Below are positions 1,529-26,640 of a stretch of DNA of 33,762 bases, one piece after another (within the stretch, counting starts at the first letter, position 1; each line of letters starts with the position of its first letter). Both the position numbers and the translations under genes were made by a program. The notes under the pieces were generated by a model, which was not told where the DNA came from, did not search any database, and was given only the letters and a program-made list of their open reading frames with translations. The DNA is taken from NCBI GenBank assembly GCA_003136315.1, contig PLDW01000080.1:1-33762 (forward strand), written 5' to 3'. Origin of the DNA: Gemmataceae bacterium. GTDB taxonomy: Bacteria > Planctomycetota > Planctomycetia > Gemmatales > Gemmataceae.

Positions 1529-1709
1529 CTAAGAAGGAAGGGGGAGCAGGAGGGCAGTTTGACTCCCCGCTGCCTCACCTTAGAGGGGTTTTGTCCGGTA
1601 GTCCTTACCCACTTGCCAGTCAGGCCGGTGGGTGATCCCGACAATCCCACCCCGATAACCCAAGAAACCGGATTCTCCGAAAAATCCGTTCGGGGTCGAT
1701 CCCTTGTTA

Positions 1710-1718
1710 TGTTAGAAT
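1710..1718 (+). promoter_or_regulatory. Possible extended -10 element upstream of the kinase gene
   Basis: TGTTAGAAT matches the extended -10 form TGnTAnAAT. It would place the transcript start near 1725, about 70 nt before the preferred ATG at 1796, and it overlaps the alternative ATG at 1709, which argues against that earlier start. No good -35 hexamer is visible 16-18 bp upstream, so this is a weak call. Confidence 0.3.
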
Positions 1719-1795
1719 GTGATGAGGTAACGGAATCGGCGGCCCAAAAGGGAACACGCCACGGACCCGCGACCTTACACCCCGGCATCCAGTTG

Positions 1796-4700
1796 ATGAA
1801 CCCGTCCGATTCGTTGCAACTTGACGACTACCTGGCCCGCGTCCTCGCGGCGTACGATCAGGGGCTTGGGGACGGGGATGAGAAGGCCCCGACCCTGGAT
1901 CTGGTGCATCTGTCGAACCCCAACAGTAGCCGTCCCACCAATTCGGCCGACCCTGCCCCTCACAAGGCGGTGAATGAAGGCTCACTGAGTGATTTACTCC
2001 CGGACCACCACCGGCCCAACGTGGTGCCGACCAACCTGTTCACAACCCCGATTCCCGGTCCCCACCGGGTTGGCCGCTACGAACTTCGACGCCAACTGGG
2101 CAAGGGCGGGTGCGGAATCGTGTTTCTGGCGTACGATCCGAAACTCAACCGGGAGGTTGCTCTCAAGATCCCGCGTCCCGAGATGCTGACCAGCGAAGAT
2201 GCCCGGCGACGGTTAGCTCGGGAGGCCCGCGCAGCAGCCGAATTCGATCACCCGAACCTTGTACCGGTGTACGAGACCGGGGAGATTGGCCCGGTCTGCT
2301 ACATCACGACCGCGTTCTGCCCCGGTCGGACGTTGGCCGAGTGGCTGGACCGGCAGGCGTTCCCGGTCCCGGTCCGTCAGGCCGCCCGGTTGATTGCCCA
2401 GGTCGCCGAAGCGGTTCAGCACGCGCACGACCGGGGCGTTCTGCATCGAGACCTGAAGCCCAACAACGTGATCCTCCAACCGGCCAAAACCGACCCGGTT
2501 GACCAGGGGCCTCCGATCGGCTCGTGCCCACTTCGGGGAGATCACTTTATCCCCCGCGTGGTCGACTTCGGCCTGGCCAAACTGGCCGAGCGAGGGCCGT
2601 CCGAGACGGTCACCCGTCAGGTTCTTGGCACCCCGAAATACATGTCCCCGGAGCAAGCCCAGGCCCGCCACGAGGATGTTGGCCCGCAGGCGGATGTGTA
2701 TGCCCTCGGGGTGGTTCTCTATGAGATGCTCGCCGGCCGAGCGCCCTACGATGGCCCGACAGATGTGGAAGTGCTTCGCCAGGCAGTCGAAGGCCGGTTG
2801 ACTCCCCCCCGCGATCTACGAGTCGACATTCCCCGAGATCTGGAGGCCATCTGCCTCAAAGCGATGGCCCGAACACCGGGGAAGCGGTATCGGACAGCGA
2901 TCGACCTGGCCGACGACCTGCGTCGCTTCCTGAATGGGCGACCGACCCTCGCTCGCCCGCTCAACCGGCTCGGCCGGGCTGCCCGGTGGCTGCGGCGGAA
3001 CGACCAACTGGTTGCCCTGATCGTCGTCTCCACGGTCGCCGTGATTCTTCTCCCGATGATGGGATGGAGCATCCACCAGAACCAGAAACTCCGGAAGGTC
3101 CAGGAGGGAAACCAGGCTCAGAATGATGTGAGGATGCGGCAGGATCGCCAGCGGGAGTACGCCCGGCATGTCCGGGACGCATTTTTGTCGTGGCGGGCCG
3201 GAGATCCCAAGCAAATGGCCGACTCGCTCGCTCGTGCCGATTTGTCGAGCGACGCCGGGGAGTTGGGGGAATTCGCCTGGGGATATCTGTCGCAACTTGG
3301 CCGTGTTGAGCGCCAATCGGTCGTATGTCCGGCTGGCCCCACGATTGTACTCGCGGTCTCCCTTGATGGAGGACGGCTTGCCACCGGTCACGCGGACGGC
3401 ACCCTCACGATGTGGGACCGCCACACCGGCATCGCTCTGGGGTCGGTCAGGGCTCACCCGGGTAGGGTGACCCACGCTGCGTTCCTCGCAGGTGGCGGCC
3501 TGGTGACCGCTGGTCGGGAACCGATCGCCAAAACCTGGGAGGTCGGCCTCGACGGAGTACCCCGCCCAGGTCCGTCATTTCCGGCCCTCTCGGCAGCCGT
3601 ATCCGTTCTGACAACCACCCCGGACGGGACAGGCGTTTACGTGGGGTCGACAGCCGGAGAGTGTCTTCTGTGGGACGCTACCACTCGTCAGGCGGGCACG
3701 CGCTGGTCGGCAACCGGAGGCGAGCCGGTCGGGGCCGTGGCGGTGTCGCCAGACGGCAAGACCCTCGCGACCGCAGGGACGACCGAGCCGGTGCGACTCT
3801 GGGACACCGCCACGCTCCACCCCATCGGAGAAATCCGCAGCGCTGTGGCACCGGGCGTCCTCGTTTTCGCCCCCGCCGACTCCGGGGCCTGGCTACTGGC
3901 TGCGGCGGGGAGGGAAGACGGGACGATCCGCTTGTTCGATGGCCAGGGGCGAGAGGTCCGCACACTGCCCGGACACGCCGGCAAGGTCCTGGCGCTGGCG
4001 GCGAGCCCAGACGGAACATCAGTCGCGTCCGGCGGGGGGGACGCCGGGGTTTGTGTCTGGGACGTTACGACCGGAACCGCTCGGGCGTTATTTCGGGGTC
4101 ACGACCAACCCGTCCGGGCGGTTCGCTTCGCTCCAGATGGGCGGACCTTGTTCTCGGCTGGCGAAGATGGTCTCTGGAAGGCGTGGGATCTGGCCGCGGA
4201 CCCGGAAGGGCCAGTGGTTCGCGGGCTACCTGCGGCAGTGACTGGGTTAGCCATCCGTCCGAATGGGACAGAATTCGTCGTCGCGCTCGCAGATGGGTCG
4301 GTCGACACCTACGCACACCGTGGAGCCGCACCCCAGCGGATTCCCGCAGACTCTCGCGGGCCGATTGGGGTGCTCCGAATCCCTGCCGACGGGCCACCGT
4401 TGGGAGTCGAGATTGGGGGCCGGGCGGCGGTGGTCTGGTCGTTCGGACCGACACGCCAGATCCACTTTCGGGCAGAGATTCCCGTACCAGCACGGTCTCT
4501 CTCCCGGCCAGAGTTCCCCGGTGGTCCCGTTGCGACCGCCGCCGACCTCTCTGCAACCGGGGATCGGCTACTAGTCGGGGACGACCGGGGCCGGGTGACG
4601 ATTTGGTCCACCAAGGATCGCCAACTGATCGGTGAGTTCGACACCGGCCTGGCGGCCCCGGTCCGACACCTGTGCATCTCCGACGACGGCAATTGGGTCG

Positions 4701-5143
4701 CGGCCCAGACCACCGACCATGAGGTCGGAGTCTGGGAAGTGGGCGACCCGAATCGGCGATATCGAGTGGCCGGACACGGGGATGGACTCTGGCTCATCCG
4801 CTTCCTTCCTGGCGGGCAACGGTTGGTGACCGCTGGTCGAGGGAGTTCGATCAAAGTGTGGAGTGTGCGCAGCGAGCGGGAAGAACTGACCCTGCTTGGA
4901 CACATTGGCCGCGTGACTGGACTGACCGTCTCCCCAAACGGACGAACACTGGTGAGCGGGAGCGGAACGGGTGAAGTGAAGCTCTGGGATCTGCGGACCG
5001 GGCAGGAGTTGATCGGACTCCGGCGGCACACCGGGCCGGTATCGGTGGCCGAGTTCGCTAGCAACGGACAGACCCTGATCACCGCTGGAACCACTCCCGG
5101 TGGCCGTGGCGAACTCGCCTTCTGGGAAGCCCGCGTGCCGTAA
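1796..5143 (+). CDS. Membrane-anchored Ser/Thr protein kinase with C-terminal WD40 repeats
   Basis: Predicted PknB-like (Hanks-type) kinase fused to a WD40 propeller region, 1115 aa from the chosen ATG. The kinase domain (about 92-380) has a glycine loop (GKGGCG), the ATP-binding Lys in VALK (124), HRDLKPNN (217-224), DFG (257-259) and the activation-loop end GTPKYMSPEQ. All key catalytic residues are present, so it should be active. An extra stretch of about 20 residues lies between HRDLKPNN and DFG. One membrane segment (about 405-425) is followed by a charged Gln/Arg-rich linker and then many WD40 units (about 500-1112) with recurring SPDGKTLAT and VWD/LWD signatures. It probably senses or scaffolds through the propeller; the ligand is unknown. 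The frame stays open upstream to a TTG at 1559 and an ATG at 1709; 1796 (MNPSDSLQLDDYLARVL) looks most like family N-termini, but no strong ribosome site decides it. Confidence 0.9.
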   Translation: MNPSDSLQLDDYLARVLAAYDQGLGDGDEKAPTLDLVHLSNPNSSRPTNSADPAPHKAVNEGSLSDLLPDHHRPNVVPTNLFTTPIPGPHRVGRYELRRQLGKGGCGIVFLAYDPKLNREVALKIPRPEMLTSEDARRRLAREARAAAEFDHPNLVPVYETGEIGPVCYITTAFCPGRTLAEWLDRQAFPVPVRQAARLIAQVAEAVQHAHDRGVLHRDLKPNNVILQPAKTDPVDQGPPIGSCPLRGDHFIPRVVDFGLAKLAERGPSETVTRQVLGTPKYMSPEQAQARHEDVGPQADVYALGVVLYEMLAGRAPYDGPTDVEVLRQAVEGRLTPPRDLRVDIPRDLEAICLKAMARTPGKRYRTAIDLADDLRRFLNGRPTLARPLNRLGRAARWLRRNDQLVALIVVSTVAVILLPMMGWSIHQNQKLRKVQEGNQAQNDVRMRQDRQREYARHVRDAFLSWRAGDPKQMADSLARADLSSDAGELGEFAWGYLSQLGRVERQSVVCPAGPTIVLAVSLDGGRLATGHADGTLTMWDRHTGIALGSVRAHPGRVTHAAFLAGGGLVTAGREPIAKTWEVGLDGVPRPGPSFPALSAAVSVLTTTPDGTGVYVGSTAGECLLWDATTRQAGTRWSATGGEPVGAVAVSPDGKTLATAGTTEPVRLWDTATLHPIGEIRSAVAPGVLVFAPADSGAWLLAAAGREDGTIRLFDGQGREVRTLPGHAGKVLALAASPDGTSVASGGGDAGVCVWDVTTGTARALFRGHDQPVRAVRFAPDGRTLFSAGEDGLWKAWDLAADPEGPVVRGLPAAVTGLAIRPNGTEFVVALADGSVDTYAHRGAAPQRIPADSRGPIGVLRIPADGPPLGVEIGGRAAVVWSFGPTRQIHFRAEIPVPARSLSRPEFPGGPVATAADLSATGDRLLVGDDRGRVTIWSTKDRQLIGEFDTGLAAPVRHLCISDDGNWVAAQTTDHEVGVWEVGDPNRRYRVAGHGDGLWLIRFLPGGQRLVTAGRGSSIKVWSVRSEREELTLLGHIGRVTGLTVSPNGRTLVSGSGTGEVKLWDLRTGQELIGLRRHTGPVSVAEFASNGQTLITAGTTPGGRGELAFWEARVP

Positions 5144-12667: not shown

Positions 12668-15600
12668 TCAGCGGGACACACGCCGGAAGAACGGCACAAC
12701 CGGCCGGTAGCGACGGGCCAGCTGATCAAATTTGGGTTGGGGACCGGGGTTCCCGAATACGGCATTGCCCACCGCTTCGCCCCCCCGGTGAACCCCCAAC
12801 CCGCCCGCCCCCACCCGCACCGGGAGTGTGACGACACCGTTCACCGGGTCGAACTGCCAGTTCGTCACCGGGGTGGTGGGGTCGAAGTAGGCTTCGACGA
12901 GGTCTTGTTTGCCACCGACGCCCAGGAAGAAGGGTGTTCCCTTCGAGGTCTGACTGTCCGGGTCGTAGGTCGCTTCCAGAACCCACGGGAAGCCATTATA
13001 AAACCCGGTTAGTTTGACTCTCTGCGTGCCGCCGGAAGCATCACCCGTATACGCCGGGGGGGTGTCGGCTGCGACCACCACCTGAATCGGGACCACAGCC
13101 CCAGCGGCGGCGGGGCCGATACTCTGTTGCAACTCCCCCAGCCACGGAGTTTCGTCCCCCGGGCTGGCGAATTGCGCGACCAGATTCGTCCGGTCAACCA
13201 CCGCCACGAACTGGGTTCGCAGGTCGCCGGGAAGAATGTCCGACACTTCGGCCCCCAGAACGATCGGGTTGTTCGGGTCGGCCGGATCACCGCCTCGCAC
13301 CTCGAAATAGCCGACTGTCATTACCACCAGATAGGTGTCGGTGACAGTGGTGACGTTGTTGAACGCCTTCCGGAGGGGTTCCCAGGCCAGATACGGGTGG
13401 AGGGGAGTCGATGGTGACGATTCGGGCCGCTGGAACAACGGCAAACCGTCCGAGGGACGCGAACGCAAGATTGTGTCATCAAGCCCGGTCGACACCCGGT
13501 TTCCGCCGCCCGGCTGGAAGACGGGGCTGCCCAAACTCTTGAGGGGTCGGTCCCCCCCGGTGCCGACCTCATCGTAGGTTGCCCCGACCTGACCAGGGAA
13601 TCCGGGGGTCCGTGTGGCGGTCAACCCCTGCCAGATCACGTCCACATCCGCCGAGGAGAACCTGTTCGCCGGTTGCGGATCGAGGACGGCGTTGAACACC
13701 CGTTGATCCCAGACCATGTTCAGGTTCACCTTCCCGGGAACTCGGCCACCCTCCGGCACCCCATGCAACCAGGGCTTCACCGCAAGTAATTCGAGTGTCC
13801 GGTGGAATGATGAGCCGGCGGCGAACATCGCCCCTGCGGGGTCGTTTCCAGTCGCGAGGTGCTGGAGATCGTGCCGGTGAAACAGCGGCGGACCGTCCGC
13901 CTGGGGGACCGCGAACTGGTGCGTCAACTCGTGAGGCTTGACGGCGGCCACGTGGAACAATTCGCAGGCGTTGACGACACGTCGGTCCAGATGTACGAGC
14001 CACTCGAACGGGGCCAGGAGAGTGTCTGGGCCTGGGGCGACCGGAACGACAGGTGGGTTCGCTGTGATGCTATTGTGGCGGAAAAAGCTCGCCTGGATGC
14101 CTGACGGTTGTCCCATCGAGTCGAGGTTCTGCTGTTTCAGAACGAGCGTTCGGGGGTAGGTGAGAGTCGGGTCTCCGGCCGCAGCTAGTGGTTGGATGCG
14201 GCCAATCGAGGAGCGGCTGGTGGCTGGCGGTGGTGGGCTCCGGGGGCCATCTGCCGCCACCCGGATCGCATCCTGGATGCGCACCCCGGTCATGTAGTCG
14301 ACGGTGATGTAGGGGTTCGTCGCACCCGGCGGCGCATACGGACACGCCAGGCGTTGAAGCACCAGCGCATGATCGGTGGCGTTGAGTGGGGTCAGTACGT
14401 CCGGGACGATATCAGCCTGGTTGACGCCAGCGCTTGGCCAGGTGTAGTAAAGCTGATTCGTCCCGGCAGTTAGATCGGCTGGTTTTTGAAGGATCAGGCG
14501 GAACCGCGGATCGGTCTTCGGGTCGGGCACGAAGGCGACCGAATCGGCCGTCGCAGGGTTGAGGGTCGGGCCGATCACCGCAAAACCGTGGCGGCTGGGG
14601 AAGCGGGCCGTGTACCGGCCGGAGTTCGGCTCGACCCGGTCGGCGAGCCACGGCCCGTGGAGAGGGTCAAGAACCCCGACACCCAGGAAATCGCACAGCA
14701 GCTTCGGCGAGATCGAAGAGACAAGGCCAGTGACATTCGCTTGGCGGTGGGCACTGAGATCCCTACGAACATCGGTCCCGTTGGTGTACACGGCAACTCG
14801 GTAGGCCGAGAACCCCTGGGCGCGATACCGCAGTGGCACCGACCCGGGAGCGTTACTGTCGTAATACAGTGGGTTGCTGGAATCGGTCTCCGCGCCACCT
14901 GGGTTCAGCAGTTCGACAAAAAATCGGACCTGGAAATCATGGGTCGCCTGCTGGGCTGTGCGATCCGCCGGATCATTCGCCACCTCGGCGTATCCCTCGT
15001 TGAGGATCAGTCGCGGTTTCTCGACCCCGAACACGACCCGGTTTGGTAGTTCAGCCGGGTCGAAGTTGGCCGCCGCGAGGGGATCCTTCGTGTTGATCGG
15101 GTTCCACACGAACGGGGTACTGATGTCGTCGTCATCGATCGCATCAACCATGTTGACGGCAACCTGCGCCAGCCACCGCCGCGTCTCCGTGTCAGTCGAA
15201 GCACCGGTGGCGATGACGAGGGCGGCCAGGATGTCGGCCGCAAGTGCCTGCCGGTCGCGCCATGCTGCGTGAAAGTTCTTGAGGTTCGTTGGCCCGAGCG
15301 GCTTCAACCGATCGGTCCGGTAGTCCGTCAGCGGACGGTTCAGGTCCACCGAAGCAACCGCGGCAAATCGGTTCCGCACACCCGCCGAAGGAGTCCCCAC
15401 ATCCGACCCCTTTGCGGCACCCGTCGCGACCGCAGCCAGGTCGAGGATCGGTGCGGACGGGCTCAAGGTCGGGACGGTCTCCGAGCCAGTCAACTCATAC
15501 GCACTCGCATCGCCGAAGAAGTTCGGAGCCAGCCCTGGCCGCCGGAGAGAGTTACTCACCGGGGTGACCAGCATCCGCACGGCGTTCGCTGGCGTCTTCG

Positions 15601-17203
15601 GTCCACTCCCGTTGAACAGGCTGGCGAAGACCGTACCGGGCCGCCCCAGATAGGTCTGATAGGTAAACTCCTCAGGTGCGCCGGAGTACTTCGGCCCAAA
15701 CCAGCCGAGATCGGAAATCGGGAAGAGCCGGGCCGTCGGCGACTGGACGCCAAACTGGAGGCGGTCCCACTGATAAGGGACAAAGAAGCCGGGATGATAC
15801 GCGGCCTCCCCGGTCGCAGTCGGACGGGTGCGATTGGCTGGAAGGAAGTCACTGTTATCGAACTGACCGGCTGGCCACATGGGGGTAGAGCCGAACTGCG
15901 CTCCGGTTCCCGCGCCGGGCAGCCTCACGGGTAGCCCCTGGCCGGCCCCATCCCAGTCGACACGAGCCGATTCTGGAGGTAGCGTCTGCCGACCCGGGAA
16001 CTGAGGGGCAGCAGGGTCGGGGTGGAAGACGCGAGCAATCGTGGTCGCCCCGCGCGGAGAGGGTGTCGTCAAACCCCGATAGCGAGTCCGGACGAGTGCC
16101 GCCGCGGCGGGGCTCGGATCGCCAGAGTGGGTCCGGGGGAAAACTGGTACGAGGCTCACTTCATAGGGACCGAATCCCATGTTCGATGCGTGAGAGCCAC
16201 TGTTGCGCAGGTTTCCCGCCACATTGAGGTTCACCCGGCCATCCAGCGGCAGGACCAGGGGGGCAATGAGTGGAGTGATCCGCCGCCCCCGCCACGTAAC
16301 CACGCCCAGGTTTGCGTCAAGCCAGACGCTGTCGTTCCGCTGGACCCCGACTCCACCCCAAAGGTTTTGCACATCGCCGGTGAACGACCCGTCCGCATTC
16401 GGAGGCGGATAGGGGAATTGAGAGACATCACCAGGAAAGAGGACATGGTCAGCCGGTCGCGGGCGGAGGATCTTGAACCGCCCGCGGGAATTGGTCCAGT
16501 TCGGATTGGGGCGGAGCACACCAGGGATCGGCGGGTCGAGACGGCCGAACAGTGTTGGCCGGTGGAAGGACGGCACAACCACCTGCCCGGTGGATGGGTC
16601 GGCGACCCCGACAGCCAGATTATTCCGGTCCGGGTAGGTGTAAGAAGCGTTCTTCCCGACGTAAATCCCCGGGACGGAGACGAACGGGGCAGTCGGTCCC
16701 GTCCGGATCGGGATGCCCCCGGTCGATCGTTCCGGGTCGACGAGCGCAGCGTTCGCCGGCACCAGAGGGTCGGGGCGATAGGTGAAGTTGATCACCTCGG
16801 CCCGGTCGAGAATGCCCACACCTGGCAGGGAAAGTGGTTCGTGGAACAACCCGACCCCGTTGTAGGGGGTCGTGTTGTTCCCGCCCGGATTCGCGCCATA
16901 GATCAGCCGTGCCAGGTCGTGTCCGCGGAGGGCGGTGGTGGTGTCGCGTCCGGTGTCACCGACCGGATAGACCAGTTGACCGAGGAACCCAGTAGCGGCA
17001 ACTGTGGGATCGGGTCGGAGATCTCCAAGGTCGGACTGACCCTCACGATAGATCCGCGCCGAGGTGGCCGCGTCCCCGGAAACATACACGAATGTCAATC
17101 CCACTACCGCGAAGAGAGCAAGCAGGACGAGAACCACAAGCAGGATGGCTCCACTGCGGTTCGGAGTGAACGAGGACCGGAGATATCGTGGATGGCGGGG
17201 CAC
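12668..17203 (-). CDS. Giant GspK/Verru_Chthon-type pseudopilin-like protein
   Basis: 1511-aa protein beginning with a short basic leader and a hydrophobic helix (RSGAILLVVLVLLALFAVVGL, about 17-37), as in PilX/GspK minor pseudopilins. After the Gly, residue 5 is Val rather than Glu, as is usual for GspK. Around residues 675-700 the segment LAQVAVNMVDAIDDDDIST resembles the 'A-x-x-AVNxVDxxDxDxxxT' region of GspK-like and Verru_Chthon cassette A proteins. The rest is Pro/Gly/Asn-rich and largely unfamiliar, and it is several times longer than ordinary GspK (about 300 aa). A periplasm-facing role at the tip of a type II secretion or type IV pilus-like filament is inferred. The start is a GTG at 17203 with GGAGG four bases upstream. 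No other pilus or secretion gene adjoins it. Confidence 0.8.
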   Translation of the reverse strand: MPRHPRYLRSSFTPNRSGAILLVVLVLLALFAVVGLTFVYVSGDAATSARIYREGQSDLGDLRPDPTVAATGFLGQLVYPVGDTGRDTTTALRGHDLARLIYGANPGGNNTTPYNGVGLFHEPLSLPGVGILDRAEVINFTYRPDPLVPANAALVDPERSTGGIPIRTGPTAPFVSVPGIYVGKNASYTYPDRNNLAVGVADPSTGQVVVPSFHRPTLFGRLDPPIPGVLRPNPNWTNSRGRFKILRPRPADHVLFPGDVSQFPYPPPNADGSFTGDVQNLWGGVGVQRNDSVWLDANLGVVTWRGRRITPLIAPLVLPLDGRVNLNVAGNLRNSGSHASNMGFGPYEVSLVPVFPRTHSGDPSPAAAALVRTRYRGLTTPSPRGATTIARVFHPDPAAPQFPGRQTLPPESARVDWDGAGQGLPVRLPGAGTGAQFGSTPMWPAGQFDNSDFLPANRTRPTATGEAAYHPGFFVPYQWDRLQFGVQSPTARLFPISDLGWFGPKYSGAPEEFTYQTYLGRPGTVFASLFNGSGPKTPANAVRMLVTPVSNSLRRPGLAPNFFGDASAYELTGSETVPTLSPSAPILDLAAVATGAAKGSDVGTPSAGVRNRFAAVASVDLNRPLTDYRTDRLKPLGPTNLKNFHAAWRDRQALAADILAALVIATGASTDTETRRWLAQVAVNMVDAIDDDDISTPFVWNPINTKDPLAAANFDPAELPNRVVFGVEKPRLILNEGYAEVANDPADRTAQQATHDFQVRFFVELLNPGGAETDSSNPLYYDSNAPGSVPLRYRAQGFSAYRVAVYTNGTDVRRDLSAHRQANVTGLVSSISPKLLCDFLGVGVLDPLHGPWLADRVEPNSGRYTARFPSRHGFAVIGPTLNPATADSVAFVPDPKTDPRFRLILQKPADLTAGTNQLYYTWPSAGVNQADIVPDVLTPLNATDHALVLQRLACPYAPPGATNPYITVDYMTGVRIQDAIRVAADGPRSPPPPATSRSSIGRIQPLAAAGDPTLTYPRTLVLKQQNLDSMGQPSGIQASFFRHNSITANPPVVPVAPGPDTLLAPFEWLVHLDRRVVNACELFHVAAVKPHELTHQFAVPQADGPPLFHRHDLQHLATGNDPAGAMFAAGSSFHRTLELLAVKPWLHGVPEGGRVPGKVNLNMVWDQRVFNAVLDPQPANRFSSADVDVIWQGLTATRTPGFPGQVGATYDEVGTGGDRPLKSLGSPVFQPGGGNRVSTGLDDTILRSRPSDGLPLFQRPESSPSTPLHPYLAWEPLRKAFNNVTTVTDTYLVVMTVGYFEVRGGDPADPNNPIVLGAEVSDILPGDLRTQFVAVVDRTNLVAQFASPGDETPWLGELQQSIGPAAAGAVVPIQVVVAADTPPAYTGDASGGTQRVKLTGFYNGFPWVLEATYDPDSQTSKGTPFFLGVGGKQDLVEAYFDPTTPVTNWQFDPVNGVVTLPVRVGAGGLGVHRGGEAVGNAVFGNPGPQPKFDQLARRYRPVVPFFRRVSR

Positions 17204-17970: not shown

Positions 17971-18510
17971 ATGACGGCACTCCTTGATCAGATCACGGGA
18001 TTTTTCGGCTCGATCGGCCTGGACTACAGCGAAGGACCAATCGAAGGTTCGACTTTTTTGCCGGGGCTTGCGATTGAGCGAGGGAGCCTCGTCTTCGACC
18101 GCGCGAGTCTGAAGTTCCCGGGTGATCTGCTTCACGAGGCCGGGCATCTCGCTGTGATGTGTCAGGCACGACGACGCACGGCCCACCGGTCGGTCGGGAA
18201 GTTTGCAGCGGAGGAACTGGCTGCGATTGCCTGGTCTTATGCGGCGGTGGTCCACCTCGGTCTGGCACCGGCGGTGGTATTCCACCCACACGGATATAAG
18301 GGCGGGTCTGACGCTCTGATCGAAAACTTCACTAATGGCCAGACGATGGGTGTACCGTTGCTCCAGTGGCTCGGGATGTCGGCCGAGCCGCGGCGGGCGG
18401 CGGAACTGGGGGTTGCACCCTACCCCGCGATGATTCACTGGCTCAATGAATCCGGAGAGGACATCGTCACGGCACGGAAGCGGACTGCAAAGGCGACCGA
18501 TCATCTGTGA
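17971..18510 (+). CDS. HExxH-motif protein, putative zinc metallopeptidase-like
   Basis: 179-aa soluble protein. The motif LLHEAGHLAV (His55, Glu56, His59) matches the HExxH zinc-binding helix of metallopeptidases; the third ligand is not clear. It has no signal peptide, so it would be cytoplasmic. No regulatory or toxin domain is visible, and proteins of this type are usually left as hypothetical. The ATG at 17971 has GAGG about 4 nt upstream. It ends 23 bp before the convergent GNAT gene's stop codon. Confidence 0.7.
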   Translation: MTALLDQITGFFGSIGLDYSEGPIEGSTFLPGLAIERGSLVFDRASLKFPGDLLHEAGHLAVMCQARRRTAHRSVGKFAAEELAAIAWSYAAVVHLGLAPAVVFHPHGYKGGSDALIENFTNGQTMGVPLLQWLGMSAEPRRAAELGVAPYPAMIHWLNESGEDIVTARKRTAKATDHL

Positions 18511-18533: not shown

Positions 18534-19070
18534 TCAACCAGTGGGGTTGCTGTTGGCGGCGACCAGTCCCGGTGGTCGCCATTCCATCTGATAGTAGACC
18601 CCGGTGGAGTCGATACGGACAAATCCCAACCGTTCATAAAGCGGCATCGCAGGGTTGAACACTTCAACATGAATCCGCACCGGGCAGCCGGTGGCGGTTG
18701 CTTCGGCAAGGAGTTGTCCGAGTAATTTCGACCCGATCCCAGCCCTTCGGAACTCGGGGAGCAAAGCGATATCGATGATCCGAAGTTCTGTCGGTTCGCG
18801 TAGGACGTACAACCGGCCAGCCGGTTGGCCATTGCACAGGATCACGTCAAACGCAGCGTCCGCGTAGTGCTCACGGTAATAGGTGTCCTGAGCGCGGAAC
18901 TGCATCCGCAGAAAGTCCTCAACCTGGTCGGAGGTCCAGCCCGTCGGGGCGAGTTCCTCGTACCGAGTGCTGGCATACACCCGATACAGGAATTCGGCCT
19001 CGTCCACTCGGGCAGGTCGCAGACTGATCGCCTTCGGTGAGTGGGAGTCGGGCAGTGGGGAGCTTGCCAC
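18534..19070 (-). CDS. GNAT-family N-acetyltransferase, last gene of the tail-collar cassette
   Basis: 178-aa predicted acetyl-CoA-dependent acetyltransferase. LRPARVDEAEFLYRVYASTR forms the first strand and helix. The acetyl-CoA pyrophosphate loop is RRAGIGSKLL (about 109-118), preceded by the beta-4 strand LRIIDIALLPEF. The C-terminal NPAMPLYERLGF is the usual GNAT motif B. The start is a GTG at 19070, only 6 bp after the stop of the upstream tail-collar gene, so it is almost certainly co-transcribed and probably translationally coupled. The substrate is unknown; by context it might modify one of the cassette's collar proteins, but that is inference only. Confidence 0.88.
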   Translation of the reverse strand: MASSPLPDSHSPKAISLRPARVDEAEFLYRVYASTRYEELAPTGWTSDQVEDFLRMQFRAQDTYYREHYADAAFDVILCNGQPAGRLYVLREPTELRIIDIALLPEFRRAGIGSKLLGQLLAEATATGCPVRIHVEVFNPAMPLYERLGFVRIDSTGVYYQMEWRPPGLVAANSNPTG

Positions 19071-19076
19071 GGCTCA

Positions 19077-19595
19077 TCAACTCCGGGTCGGGTAAATGCC
19101 AACCATGGCGATGATGAAGCTCACCGTGAGGTATGGTTGGAGGTTATTGTGTGGCAGGCTTCCCCCGGTCGGGCCGCACGACGAGGCAGACATCAGTTGG
19201 GTTGGTGCCGGCGAAGCGAACGGAATGAGGGTGCGGTTCCCGCCGATCAGGTTCCCGCCGGGGGTGAGGGAGCCTCCGGTCGCATCAACGGTCTGGAAGT
19301 TGTGAGTGTGCGCTGGCAGTTGCGTGTTCAAGAGAGTGACAGTCTTCTCTCCACCGACCTCACCGACGACCCTGGAGGTCAACCCCGCACCGTTCCCCTG
19401 GTGCATCGGGGCAGTGCCCTGGAAGTTCGGCAAGCCGAATGTCGAAGTGCCGTTCCCACCGAAGTTCGTCCCCAGGAGCGAGAACAGCGCGGCGTTCTGC
19501 GAGATCGAGAGGAGTTGCCCCTGGCACATGGCCCAGCCCTGGGGGGCGAAGTTGCCTGCGAACATCCGGACTTCACCAAGAAATTGGTCAGACAT
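19077..19595 (-). CDS. Phage tail-collar domain protein (microcystin-dependent-protein-like), paralogue 3
   Basis: 172-aa protein of the tail-collar (PF07484-like, MdpB-like) family. The N-terminal block runs FLGEVRMFAGNFAPQGWAMC then GQLLSISQNAALFSLLG and FGLPNFQG. The middle has the LPAHTH motif, and the C-terminus is PHNNLQPYLTVSFIIAMVGI followed by YPTRS. It is the third of three paralogues, with the most divergent middle segment. The ATG at 19595 has AGGAG 6 nt upstream and starts 18 bp after the previous gene. The family name comes from phage tail fibres, but these free-standing bacterial versions have no settled function; a secreted or surface trimeric fibre is plausible. Confidence 0.9.
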   Translation of the reverse strand: MSDQFLGEVRMFAGNFAPQGWAMCQGQLLSISQNAALFSLLGTNFGGNGTSTFGLPNFQGTAPMHQGNGAGLTSRVVGEVGGEKTVTLLNTQLPAHTHNFQTVDATGGSLTPGGNLIGGNRTLIPFASPAPTQLMSASSCGPTGGSLPHNNLQPYLTVSFIIAMVGIYPTRS

Positions 19596-19613
19596 GGCCG
19601 GCTCCTGATTCGG

Positions 19614-20138
19614 TTAGCTACGGGAGGGGAAAATGCCATTTAAGGCGATAATAAACGTGAGCACCTGGAACGGCATCAGGTTATCGTGTGGCTGGCTTCC
19701 TCCGGCAGTCGCCAGGGTCGCTCCTGCCATCAGACTCAGAGTGCCGGCGTTCGGGGCAGCGTACAGGTCGTTGGTTCCGCCGGTGGCGGCATATAACCCC
19801 CCGGCAGGACTCATGGCCCCGGCCGCTCCATTGGTCCCGAAGGCCGTGTGCTGATGGTTCGGGATCTGCGTACCGCTGAGCGTCACCGTTTCGGTCCCAG
19901 CGATCTGACCCTGAACAAATGTCCCCTGGGCGCTGGTCCCCATATGCACGGGGAGCCGACCTTGCAGGTTGGGCAGTGCGAACGTGTTGACTCCGTCCCC
20001 GCCATAGGTTGTGCCGATCAAAGTGAACAGGGCCGCGTTTTGGCTGATCGAGAGCAACTGGCCATTGCACATGGCAAAGCCTGAGGGGTTAAAAGTCCCC
20101 CCAAACATGCGGATCTCACCAATGTAGGGTTCGGCCAC
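19614..20138 (-). CDS. Phage tail-collar domain protein (microcystin-dependent-protein-like), paralogue 2
   Basis: 174-aa tail-collar protein. It begins with YIGEIRMFGGTFNPSGFAMC, then GQLLSISQNAALFTLIG and FALPNLQGRLPVHMG. The family His motif is altered to IPNHQH, and the protein ends PHDNLMPFQVLTFIIALNGI-FPSRS. The start is a GTG at 20138 with GGAG 6 nt upstream; it follows paralogue 1 by 20 bp. No signal peptide is visible, so export, if any, is not Sec-type. Gly/Ala-rich loops in the middle differ from those of the neighbours. Confidence 0.9.
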   Translation of the reverse strand: MAEPYIGEIRMFGGTFNPSGFAMCNGQLLSISQNAALFTLIGTTYGGDGVNTFALPNLQGRLPVHMGTSAQGTFVQGQIAGTETVTLSGTQIPNHQHTAFGTNGAAGAMSPAGGLYAATGGTNDLYAAPNAGTLSLMAGATLATAGGSQPHDNLMPFQVLTFIIALNGIFPSRS

Positions 20139-20158
20139 GGGTGGCTCCAGGTTGGGTG

Positions 20159-20659
20159 TTAACTGCGGGTGGGGTAAATGCCCGAGAGGGCGATGCAGAA
20201 GTTCAGGACAAGATACGGCTGCATGTTGTTGTGGGGCTGGCTGCCGCCGAACGCGACAACTGCGTTATTGGCGAACGCAGCAGTGGTACCCCCGGAGTAG
20301 AGGGCGAACGTCGGGGCACCAGGAAGGTTCCCGGTGGCGGGTCGCTGATTGGCCGCCGGGGTCACCACCCCTTGCATCGTGTGGGTATGCGCGGGCATCT
20401 CACCTGTGACCAGGGTGTGATTGGCCTCCCCGCCGGTTGCACCGAGGACATTCGATGGACCAGTCGAGACCGGCACACACCCCTGAAAGTTCGGCAGTTG
20501 GAAAGTCGTCGTCCCATTCCCGCCATAGGTGGTACCGATGAGCGAGAAAAGTGCTGCGTTCTGGCTGATTGCCAAGGTCTGGCCGTTGCACATAGCCCAG
20601 CCCGAGGGCGCGAAGTTGAACGAAAAAATCCGGATCTCCGCGAGGTACGGTGAGCTCAT
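20159..20659 (-). CDS. Phage tail-collar domain protein (microcystin-dependent-protein-like), paralogue 1
   Basis: 166-aa tail-collar protein, first of three in the operon. The conserved N-terminal block is YLAEIRIFSFNFAPSGWAMC followed by GQTLAISQNAALFSLIG and FQLPNFQG. The mid-protein motif is MPAHTH, and the C-terminus is PHNNMQPYLVLNFCIALSGI-YPTRS. The ATG at 20659 has GAGGA 7 nt upstream and lies 17 bp after the DUF6916 gene. The shared ends and variable middle suggest one structural scaffold with different exposed loops. Confidence 0.9.
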   Translation of the reverse strand: MSSPYLAEIRIFSFNFAPSGWAMCNGQTLAISQNAALFSLIGTTYGGNGTTTFQLPNFQGCVPVSTGPSNVLGATGGEANHTLVTGEMPAHTHTMQGVVTPAANQRPATGNLPGAPTFALYSGGTTAAFANNAVVAFGGSQPHNNMQPYLVLNFCIALSGIYPTRS

Positions 20660-20676
20660 GAGAGAGTCCTCTGGGT

Positions 20677-20985
20677 TCAGGTGAATATCGCTTCGAGTAA
20701 CAGCCCCTCTTCGTCGCGACCGACAGGCACCATGAAAATCTCGAGTCGTCCATGCTGATCGTGTTCGAGACCGATTGTGCCTTGGGGGATGTAACCAGCG
20801 GTGCGGGCACGAAACAGCAGCGAGAAGGCACGTCGGGCGGGTCTGCCAGCCAGGGCCGGTGTCTCCCGAAGGGCCTTCACCTCCAACAGATCGAGCGTCA
20901 AGGGCGGGCCGCCCCCGAGCACCGGGGCCACGAATGCGGCCGGGCGGGGCGGGGCAAAATCAGCAGTCGTCAGACGATCTAGCAT
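20677..20985 (-). CDS. DUF6916-family protein, first gene of the tail-collar cassette
   Basis: 102-aa protein. MLDRLTTADFAPPRPAAF, LDLLEVKAL, RRAFSLLFRA and the closing LEIFMVPVGRDEEGLLLEAIF match the DUF6916 family pattern as I remember it. Members typically sit directly upstream of tail-collar genes, as here. It has no signal peptide and no known activity; a chaperone or assembly role for the collar proteins is a guess from context. The ATG at 20983-20985 has no visible ribosome site, so translation could be leaderless or start elsewhere. The 268-bp spacer upstream holds a TTGACA within a small palindrome (CGAGT..ACTCG) but no matching -10. Confidence 0.8.
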   Translation of the reverse strand: MLDRLTTADFAPPRPAAFVAPVLGGGPPLTLDLLEVKALRETPALAGRPARRAFSLLFRARTAGYIPQGTIGLEHDQHGRLEIFMVPVGRDEEGLLLEAIFT

Positions 20986-25200: not shown

Positions 25201-26640
25201 ATGCGACTCTTGACCCTGCTCGCCCTGCTCATACTCCTCGGTGTGTCCTCCATCGGCCCGACCCAGGAGCCAAAGAAAGACCCGAAGGAACTGCCCCCGA
25301 TCCCGACGACCGACCTGAAGCGGAAAGATCCGGTCGAGTACTCGAAAGACATCGAGCCCGTGTTCGCAAACAAGTGCTTTGTCTGCCACACAGGAAGCGT
25401 TGTCGAGGGCAAGTTCGATATGAGTACCCATTCCGGGGTGCTCAAGGGCGGTAAGCGGGGGGTGGCGGTTGTCCCCGGGAAATCGACCGAGAGCAACCTG
25501 TTCCTCTTCTGCTCGCGGCAGAAGAAACCGATCATGCCGCCCAAGAGCGAGGATCCCCTGAACTCGCAAGAAGTGAGCCTGATCAAGCTCTGGATCGACG
25601 AGGGCGCGAAGGCACCGACGATGGCCCGGGTGAAGGCGAAGGTGATCGTGAACTTGCCGCCAGCGCTGGTCAAGCCGGTGAGGGCGGTCGCGGTCTCGCC
25701 AGATGGGAAGACGGTGGCGGCCAGCCGTGGGAACCAGATTCATCTTTACGACGGGAAGAAGGGCGATTTCCTCAAGACACTGGTCGACCCACTCTTGAAG
25801 ACTCCAGACGGAAAGGTGGCCAAGGCCGCGCACATCTCGCTTGTTGAGTCGTTGGCGTTCAGCCCGGACGGGAAGACGCTGGCGAGCGGGAGTTTCCAGG
25901 AGCTGACCCTGTGGGACGCGGAGAAGGGGGAGCCCAAGAAGCGACTGACCGGATTCGCCGACCGGGTGGTGGCCATCGCCTATTCGCCCGACGGGAAGTT
26001 ACTGGCGACCGGCGGCGGCGCTCCGACCGAGGACGGAGAGCTGAAGATCTTCGAAGCAGACTCCGGGAAGCAACTCACCGACATCAAGAATGGGCACAGC
26101 GACACAGTGTTCGCGGTCGGGTTCAGCCCGGATGGGAAGCTGTTGGCATCGGGAGCGGCGGACAAGTTCGTCAAGGTGTTCGAGGTGCCTGGCGGAAAGT
26201 TCGTGAAGTCGTTCGAGGGGCACACGCACCATGTGATGGGGGTGGGCTGGACGCCGGATGGGAAGAAACTGGCGTCGTGCGGAGCCGACAACTTCGTGAA
26301 GGTGTGGGACTACGAGAAGGGGGAGAAAATCCGGGATATGCAGGGACACCAGAAACAGGTGACGCAGTTGGTGTTCGTGGGCAAGACGCAGCAATTTCTG
26401 ACCGTCAGCGGCGATTCATCGGTTCGGATGTGGAACGCAGACAACGGCGGGAATGTGCGTCAATACCCGGGAGCGACGGATTTCCTCTACTCGGTGTCGG
26501 CAAGCACCGACGGTACGGTGGTGGCAGCAGGTGGAGAGGATGGCGTGGTGCGAATCTACAACGGCACCAACGCATCGCTTGTGAAGGCTGCCCTCCCACC
26601 GGATGCCGAACCGAAGAAAGAGGAGCCGAAAAAGAAGTAA
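25201..26640 (+). CDS. Planctomycete-type c-type cytochrome domain plus WD40 repeat protein
   Basis: 479-aa predicted exported protein. A signal peptide (MRLLTLLALLILLGVSSIG) is followed by a planctomycete cytochrome-C-like domain (about 45-140) with the heme-binding CFVCH (Cys59, Cys62, His63). A Met in PIMPPKSEDPL may be the distal ligand, as in this family. WD40 repeats occupy about 155-465, with SPDGKTLASG, SPDGKLLATG and VWDYEKGEKI signatures, and the tail is Lys-rich. Heme binding is well supported; an electron-transfer or sensing role is inferred. The ATG at 25201 has GGAG 9 nt upstream. It follows the PPC gene by 254 bp, a gap filled by a palindromic element. Confidence 0.92.
   Translation: MRLLTLLALLILLGVSSIGPTQEPKKDPKELPPIPTTDLKRKDPVEYSKDIEPVFANKCFVCHTGSVVEGKFDMSTHSGVLKGGKRGVAVVPGKSTESNLFLFCSRQKKPIMPPKSEDPLNSQEVSLIKLWIDEGAKAPTMARVKAKVIVNLPPALVKPVRAVAVSPDGKTVAASRGNQIHLYDGKKGDFLKTLVDPLLKTPDGKVAKAAHISLVESLAFSPDGKTLASGSFQELTLWDAEKGEPKKRLTGFADRVVAIAYSPDGKLLATGGGAPTEDGELKIFEADSGKQLTDIKNGHSDTVFAVGFSPDGKLLASGAADKFVKVFEVPGGKFVKSFEGHTHHVMGVGWTPDGKKLASCGADNFVKVWDYEKGEKIRDMQGHQKQVTQLVFVGKTQQFLTVSGDSSVRMWNADNGGNVRQYPGATDFLYSVSASTDGTVVAAGGEDGVVRIYNGTNASLVKAALPPDAEPKKEEPKKK

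Follow-up and report, generated by a model that had tools for sequence, protein, structure and literature searches.

Bacterial proteins with a collar domain of the phage-tail type have been described before. RhiB, encoded by the rhiABC genes of Rhizobium, and MrpB of Microcystis, which belongs to the COG4675 'microcystin-dependent protein' group, are of this kind, and in the available portions of the sources each is a single such gene accompanied by rhiA/rhiC or mrpA, with no mention of a triplet, a GNAT acetyltransferase or DUF6916 (PMC13133039, PMC6969944, PMC11448079). The locus analyzed here lies in a 33,762-nucleotide stretch of a Gemmataceae bacterium (phylum Planctomycetota; assembly GCA_003136315.1, contig PLDW01000080.1, positions 1 to 33,762), referred to as the window. 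It is a cassette of a DUF6916 gene, three different collar genes of types Y, X and Z, and a GNAT acetyltransferase gene. A literature search of open-access full text, with subscription papers and preprints outside its scope, found no paper with the term 'DUF6916' and no account of a system that joins the triplet to an acetyltransferase. Bacterial collar proteins and their phage-type fold are therefore known, and a three-type module with an acetyltransferase, DUF6916 and a giant neighbor appears to be new; its function is unproven.

The structural counterparts of the collars are phage fiber tips. Phage collars are part of trimeric tips, and the tips of T4 gp12 (PDB 1ocy) and of the cyanophage A-1(L) fiber (8kec) are homotrimers in which a collar domain is followed by the tip, as in the window collars. 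Unlike these fibers, the cassette collars are shaftless, three genes replace one and no virion genes adjoin. RimI and N-alpha-acetyltransferase 50 (NAA50) are GNAT family members among the nearest named relatives of the cassette GNAT, which scores below the RimI cut-off; both are housekeeping enzymes, unlike a GNAT tied to one cassette. The closest annotated loci are plasmid 'tail fiber protein' loci of Sinorhizobium, Deinococcus, Aminobacter, Ruegeria and Comamonas, which have been annotated piecemeal. In all five, three collar genes are accompanied by an N-acetyltransferase gene and adjoined by a gene for a giant protein. A small hypothetical protein is encoded next to or near them; a weak match suggests that it is DUF6916 in Sinorhizobium, the only one of the five with such an indication. 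The window version, unlike them, lacks the adjoining giant. With about even confidence, we read the cassette as a cellular, non-virion complex of the tail-fiber-tip type, in which Y, X and Z collars would assemble 1:1:1, the GNAT would acetylate their N-termini, DUF6916 would serve as adaptor or chaperone, and the product would act outside the cytoplasm.

Composition and spread of the collar cassette

The five genes are codirectional (Table 1), and the intergenic gaps from DUF6916 to GNAT are 17, 20, 18 and 6 bp. A sequence-only reading of the window had proposed a single operon at 18534-20985, and its gene order, shared direction and gaps of 6-20 bp were confirmed, all five genes being on the minus strand. 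The good ribosome sites it described hold in part: by eye, sites are plausible 5' of the three collar genes, weaker 5' of GNAT and not obvious 5' of DUF6916. All five proteins exceed the curated Pfam cut-offs, the three collars with 93.7-95.4 bits against PF07484 (cut-off 24) and DUF6916 with 74.8 bits against PF21880 (cut-off 27). A search of the whole genome (11.6 Mb, 524 contigs) for PF07484 at E ≤ 0.001 finds these three collar domains and no others. Locus L184, from the same genus, carries DUF6916-Y-X-Z-GNAT in identical order on one strand, with identities to the window of 65% for GNAT, 62% for DUF6916 (over 69 residues), 56% for X, 52% for Z and 46% for Y. Locus L018, from another family of the same phylum, has DUF6916, three collars and GNAT ordered as in the window. 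The gene order is more than chance because it recurs on one strand in both loci, which supplies the conservation in relatives on which the sequence-only reading had staked its proposal.

A genome-collection scan used 14 collars as query, and the best 80 of at least 585 confirmed stretches yielded a set of 79 loci that is biased toward likeness to the window query. In these best 79 loci, there are three collar open reading frames (ORFs) in 73, six in 2, two in 2 and one in 2; GNAT is present in 70, a DUF6916-like ORF in 63 (loose threshold, E ≤ 0.01) and all three parts in 61. Whole-genome counts for 20 genomes, all from this set, are three collars in 13, six in 4, nine in 1 and four in 2, and one six-collar genome (G350) has its collars split 3 + 2 + 1 over three contigs. 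Among plasmids, 57 records match at 134 places, with three places in 20 of 20 among the matches listed. Forty Bacteroidota regions, picked by us from the match list and mostly clusters, hold three collars in 25 (one a fusion), two in nine and one in six, and none holds four or five. Of 79 loci from a viral-contig collection, 66 have a single collar ORF, five have two, six have three, one has six and one (L108) has nine, arranged as three spaced groups of three. The cassette is part of a widespread cellular module that is conserved in composition across phyla. This neighborhood survey bears out the proposal of a collar cassette that lacks adjoining phage genes and is linked to GNAT and DUF6916. 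In some lineages, extra genes separate the third collar from GNAT (L241:7614-8864, L242:8602-10086 and L243:8650-9867); they encode a periplasmic-binding protein in Deinococcus and, in Alphaproteobacteria, proteins of 405-494 aa that are largely or wholly without Pfam matches.

Tree and best-hit comparisons indicate that the three collar genes are three ancient orthologous types common to at least seven phyla. A tree was built from 244 collars that include 72 triplets from seven phyla. Its first branch (support 86) places exactly one member of each of the 72 triplets on one side, and with the best second branch (support 45), 71 of the 72 triplets contain each of X, Y and Z once. Shuffled labels gave one of each in a mean of 16.1 and a maximum of 27 triplets; the split was chosen by us to fit, and the shuffle is not a full test. 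A split-free check found one-to-one best hits in 1540 of 2003 (77%) cross-phylum locus pairs, compared with 22% by chance. Identity is 55.8% for the same type across phyla, 47.2% between different types and 49.3% between paralogues within a locus. The commonest order, YXZ (51 of 72 triplets), is that of the window, and both six-gene loci of the 79-locus set read YXZYXZ. Type hidden Markov models built without the window assign each window gene to its type. The Y gene scores 227.8 bits for Y against 211.3 for Z and 190.0 for X, the X gene 220.2 for X against 201.1 for Y and 200.8 for Z, and the Z gene 234.4 for Z against 219.1 for X and 195.1 for Y; the margins over the next type are 16.5 (Y), 19.1 (X) and 15.3 (Z) bits. 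The window Z gene sits on the Y side of the weakly supported tree branch.

The fold of the window Y model matches 8kec at 6.1e-5 and 1ocy at 3.6e-3, and the corresponding profile matches of the collar are 6.3e-11 and 0.0012. The Y monomer model is poor, with a predicted template modeling score (pTM) of 0.45 and a badly packed C-terminal half. The collar domain starts at residue 7-8 in proteins of 166-174 aa, and the long N-terminal shaft of the gp12 type is absent. Single chains with three full collar domains are encoded at L187:9070-10611 (minus strand, 513 aa) and L227:5675-7318 (plus strand, 547 aa); L187 also has a one-domain gene and a two-domain gene, and L185 and L188 have three or more shorter collar domains. 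Loci with three, six or nine collars and the three-in-one fusions would fit a unit of three. From the triplets, the fusions and the poor monomer model we infer a heterotrimer, in which Y, X and Z would form a 1:1:1 intertwined and shaftless trimer resembling the homotrimeric tip of a phage short tail fiber. One-collar loci would then encode homotrimers.

Table 1. Genes of the collar cassette in the window, in operon order
Feature	Coordinates	Strand	Length (aa)	Lysine	N-terminus	Pfam match	Remark
DUF6916 gene	20677..20985	-	102			PF21880, E 5.9e-21	operon head
Collar subunit type Y	20159..20659	-	166	0	Met-Ser	PF07484, E 2.4e-27	
Collar subunit type X	19614..20138	-	174	0	Met-Ala	PF07484, E 2e-27	GTG start
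Collar subunit type Z	19077..19595	-	172	1	Met-Ser	PF07484, E 6.7e-27	
GNAT acetyltransferase gene	18534..19070	-	178			Acetyltransf_1 PF00583, E 3.8e-13	

The acetyltransferase and the linked proteins

The best NCBIfam match of the cassette GNAT is RimI (TIGR01575), at 37.3 bits against a cut-off of 86.4. Its 11 PDB matches are led by NAA50, and five are named N-alpha-acetyltransferase; a sixth, 2ob0 ('Human MAK3 homolog'), is the same human protein as NAA50, and the others include YpeA. The collars are poor in lysine, with 0.54 (X), 0.84 (Y) and 0.95 (Z) residues per 100 aa, and 58 of 230 are lysine-free. Compared with the GNAT encoded alongside them, the collars contain proportionally less lysine in 60 of 69 loci. 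In the five loci under 45% GC, four of which have a GNAT, lysine makes up 1.1% of the collars versus 9.1% of the GNATs, and it is 1.8% in the collar regions of viral-collection ORFs. Lysine acetylation of the collars was considered and judged unlikely, there being almost no lysine present.

The second residue of the collars correlates with the presence of GNAT. The start of each collar was set at a Met close to the beginning of the domain, and 5, 1, 0, 18, 0 and 2 collars without such a Met were excluded from the six classes. Residue 2 is Ser or Ala in 180 of 207 collars with a GNAT versus 12 of 20 without one in the 79-locus set, in 20 of 23 versus 12 of 56 in Bacteroidota (a few of these 56 starts being Met inside leaders), and in 14 of 14 versus 1 of 12 in the window's own phylum. 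The own-phylum set comprises 17 loci (6 with and 11 without GNAT) and excludes the window itself and the fusion loci L185, L186, L188 and L189. Counted per locus, it has Ser/Ala in 6 of 6 with GNAT versus 1 of 9 without (p = 0.0014, kinship not corrected), and the single-collar loci alone, which are too few, give p = 0.08. The lone own-phylum Ser without a GNAT is L023, a 3.3-kb contig cut in the collar gene, and its GNAT may be off-contig. GNAT-free collars that lack Ser/Ala mostly have Pro, Asp or Glu at this position. The background frequency of Ser/Ala is 18 of 126 other ORFs, a poor control with starts taken as the first ATG. The GNAT is, on these comparisons, probably the N-terminal acetyltransferase of the collars: Met would be removed, the GNAT would acetylate the N-terminal Ser or Ala, and the reaction would remove almost the only free amine of nearly lysine-free proteins. 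The sequence-only reading had called the GNAT a modification partner, and the support for this is indirect, coming from its NAT-like (N-terminal acetyltransferase-like) matches, the lysine-poor collars and the residue-2 correlation.

DUF6916 is present in 10 of 294 own-phylum genomes, and a collar gene adjoins it in 10 of 10. Three of these loci (the window, L018 and L004) have three collars and seven have one, L023 among the seven being clipped by the contig end. At 1e-10, collars match in 28 of the 294 genomes, own genome counted, with many collars lacking DUF6916, and in 5 of 59 relatives, own genome included. Searches of 50,697 phage records and of PHROGs gave no match to DUF6916. Its AlphaFold2 model has a predicted local distance difference test score (pLDDT) of 88.4 and depicts a small beta protein, and a Foldseek search with this model returned nothing below E 0.1. 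The top Foldseek rows, all with E > 0.1, include several phage neck, tail-tube, terminator and Hcp proteins and are a lead only. The DUF6916 protein of L038 has a twin-arginine-like leader. Linkage to collars agrees with the earlier suggestion of an assembly partner and is its sole basis; DUF6916 may act as a small adaptor or chaperone.

A giant neighbor, defined as an ORF of 350 aa or more that is rich in T/S/G/N, poor in K/R and no farther than 1.5 kb from the cassette, is found in 63 of 79 loci. These proteins are mostly >1000 aa and often cut by the locus end. The same composition test was positive anywhere in 4 of 20 control regions of 12 kb away from cassettes, the positions being picked by us from 13 genomes of the 79-locus set and 7 other Bacteroidota. 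Pfam identified Ig-like or cadherin-like repeats in three of four giant proteins tested, and the giants of Sinorhizobium and Ruegeria contain an autotransporter domain. The L184 neighbor is divergent, 1416 aa long (cut) and starts 388 bp beyond the DUF6916 gene. A conserved C-terminal tail was rejected as a shared feature, as alignment of 33 ORFs showed a Cys-Pro-rich tail in some and not in all. The description of the cassette as free-standing is correct in that no phage genes adjoin and too narrow in that a giant surface-type protein adjoins in most relatives. The complex may be paired with the giant surface protein next door in those relatives, and in the window it would have an unlinked partner or act alone.

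Sec-type leaders were recognized by eye on three collars each in L111 and L112 and also in L115, L116, L218, L236 and L238, and twin-arginine-type (Tat) leaders, again by eye, on several Bacteroidota collars. The mature start of leader-bearing collars is in register with Met-Ser/Ala-Asp-Pro-Phe. Loci with collar leaders of either type by eye are L111, L112, L204, L205, L211, L216, L218, L220 and L235-L238, and neither GNAT nor DUF6916 was found in ten leader-bearing Bacteroidota loci. We infer an export route and ligand binding for the collars, with the complex acting as an extracytoplasmic tip that binds glycans or surfaces. In the available parts of the sources, a pfam07484 protein is reported in the exoproteome of Ruegeria pomeroyi grown with Synechococcus (PMC4949626) and COG4675 proteins are reported in a soil metaproteome (PMC5579227); these may or may not come from triplets. 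The available part of a study of Acaryochloris marina MBIC11017 lists the collars AM1_3688-3690, the acetyltransferase AM1_3686 and AM1_3687 as down by log2 3.2-4.0 in high white versus low far-red light (PMC11633204); AM1_3687 may be a DUF6916 gene.

Surroundings and rival explanations

The Pfam scan of the window covered the five cassette genes and 14 other ORFs; of the 60 listed window ORFs of at least 150 aa, many of which are antisense, it covered a minority. The 14 include genes for kinase-WD40, WD40, glycosyltransferase, Rieske, beta-lactamase-like and DUF4198 proteins and several proteins without a match. Collars aside, no phage structural family was detected among them, and no adjoining terminase, capsid, sheath, tube or baseplate gene. 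Six ORFs from the rest of the 70.7-kb contig, five of them also scanned by Pfam, matched no structural PHROG. The earlier statement that phage structural genes are missing nearby is borne out in the 14 window and six contig ORFs scanned, and the contig ORFs likewise show none in the part of the contig outside the window. The N-terminus of a 1511-aa ORF at window 12668-17203 (minus strand) is hydrophobic and, by eye, prepilin-like. This ORF lacks a Pfam match, as does a 179-aa ORF at 17971-18510 (plus strand) that converges on the GNAT gene. WD40 repeat proteins lie on the one contig at window 1559-5143 and 25201-26640 (plus strand), L016:3530-7144 and L016:13374-16772, and three of them have a protein kinase domain.

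A fuller version of the proposed cellular complex is held more tentatively than the core proposal. It would be an undescribed surface or secreted complex with a split, shaftless tip of three obligate subunits, a dedicated N-terminal acetyltransferase and a giant Ig/cadherin/beta-helix protein on which the tip is mounted, present in at least seven phyla and hitherto taken for phage debris. Several observations weigh against the proposed complex. Single-collar loci are common (7 of 10 own-phylum DUF6916 loci and 6 of 40 Bacteroidota regions), and two-collar loci, 9 of the 40 Bacteroidota regions, would need a 2:1 trimer or would contradict a rule of three. The second tree split has a support of only 45, an alternative split with support 85 sorts 69 of 72 triplets, and the best hits of the window collars form a one-to-one map with only 32 of the 72 triplet loci. 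No giant adjoins the window cassette, and the two larger ORFs that flank it fail the composition test. The window collars have no signal peptide, which leaves their export unexplained, and the GNAT frequency of 0 of 10 leader-bearing versus 8 of 30 other Bacteroidota loci is not a significant difference (p = 0.17). The GNAT falls below the curated RimI cut-off. The residue-2 correlation is partly a clade effect, with GNAT-free Bacteroidota collars belonging mostly to Met-Glu/Asp families, and in the 79-locus set Ser/Ala is present in 12 of the 20 collars from loci without GNAT.

The collar complex may exist as proposed with a GNAT that modifies something else, such as a glycan, a small molecule or the giant protein. 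GNAT specificity is not reliably readable from sequence, the RimI cut-off is unmet, and YpeA and other GNATs match nearly as well as NAA50; the NAT-like nearest structures, the lysine-poor collars and a residue-2 correlation in two phyla point instead to the collar N-terminus, and we regard another target as somewhat unlikely. The main rival to the complex itself is that the collars serve as receptor-binding fibers for an extracellular contractile injection system (eCIS) or a tailocin whose genes lie elsewhere in the genome, which we consider improbable. A fiber of this kind is possible because an eCIS-like cluster with sheath, CIS_tube and GPD hub genes sits at the end of a contig in the window's genome (L239, C375 84000-94722). 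The earlier remark that no sheath or tube gene lies nearby is correct at the locus itself, and the C375 cluster allows for a partner elsewhere. The available part of the Acaryochloris study places two collars, an acetyltransferase and a conserved hypothetical of one MU13 gene run in the same induced list as the tail sheath gene of another cluster and its neighbors (PMC11633204). A PF04984 sheath match is present in 10 of 23 cassette genomes and absent at E ≤ 0.001 from 13, the same-genus genome included, with the limits that this genome is 84% complete and that the PF04984 model may miss divergent sheaths. The genomes without a sheath match weaken an obligatory contractile-apparatus fiber, which is kept as a rival. 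None of the 14 neighbor clusters recurring in at least 4 of 79 loci is sheath- or baseplate-like by eye, and to our knowledge three different tip subunits per locus are unusual for eCIS or tailocin fibers.

A decoy, competition or defense device, with soluble or surface collars that bind phage receptors or rival cells, is less probable still. A receptor-binding fold without adjoining virion genes and the patchy distribution of collars (5 of 59 relatives, 28 of 294 phylum genomes) would suit it, none of the five proteins matches a PADLOC model at E ≤ 0.01, and the frequent pairing with a giant surface protein fits adhesion better; the role is without direct support. A decaying or recently domesticated prophage fragment is very improbable. 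The domain is of phage type, phage fibers are 37.9-40.0% identical among the matches listed, and a collar triplet was noted in passing as phage genes in Caulobacter K31 in the available part of that paper (PMC4221894). Three, six or nine collars occur in 8 of the 79 viral-collection loci, and L109, from the same collection, has two collars at a contig edge with a GNAT and a DUF6916-like ORF. The reading frames are intact, however, one gene set with three orthologous types recurs in at least seven phyla, and DUF6916 is absent from the phage sequences searched. The IMG/VR contigs L105-L109 carry collar clusters, with GNAT in L106, L107 and L109. The neighbors in L106 and L107 are a DUF4347/fibronectin-type giant, a sulfotransferase and a hydroxylase, and those in L105 are two secreted-looking collagen/CBM96 proteins; because these neighbors look cellular, L105-L107 may be host DNA. 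Ten ORFs of L105, L106, L107 and L109 have no capsid, portal, terminase or sheath match, though among these ten ORFs collagen stretches and one fn3 stretch match tail-fiber PHROGs. The sulfotransferase and aspartyl/asparaginyl beta-hydroxylase genes beside the cassette (L106:2865-3770, L107:4494-5183) are possible further modifying enzymes. A prophage remnant leaves the shared parts of non-phage type unaccounted for; this reading was rejected on gene content and on the absence of DUF6916 from phage records and PHROGs, though viral-collection contigs hold triplets.

Genes annotated as 'tail fiber protein' or 'microcystin-dependent protein' occur without a function in a soil metaproteome and a marine exoproteome. 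If such genes form a conserved complex of three subunits with an N-terminal acetyltransferase and a giant partner of its own, a large set of mis-annotated genes would fall into a single system that can be tested, and bacteria would possess an N-terminal acetyltransferase that is protein-specific and belongs to a complex they export.

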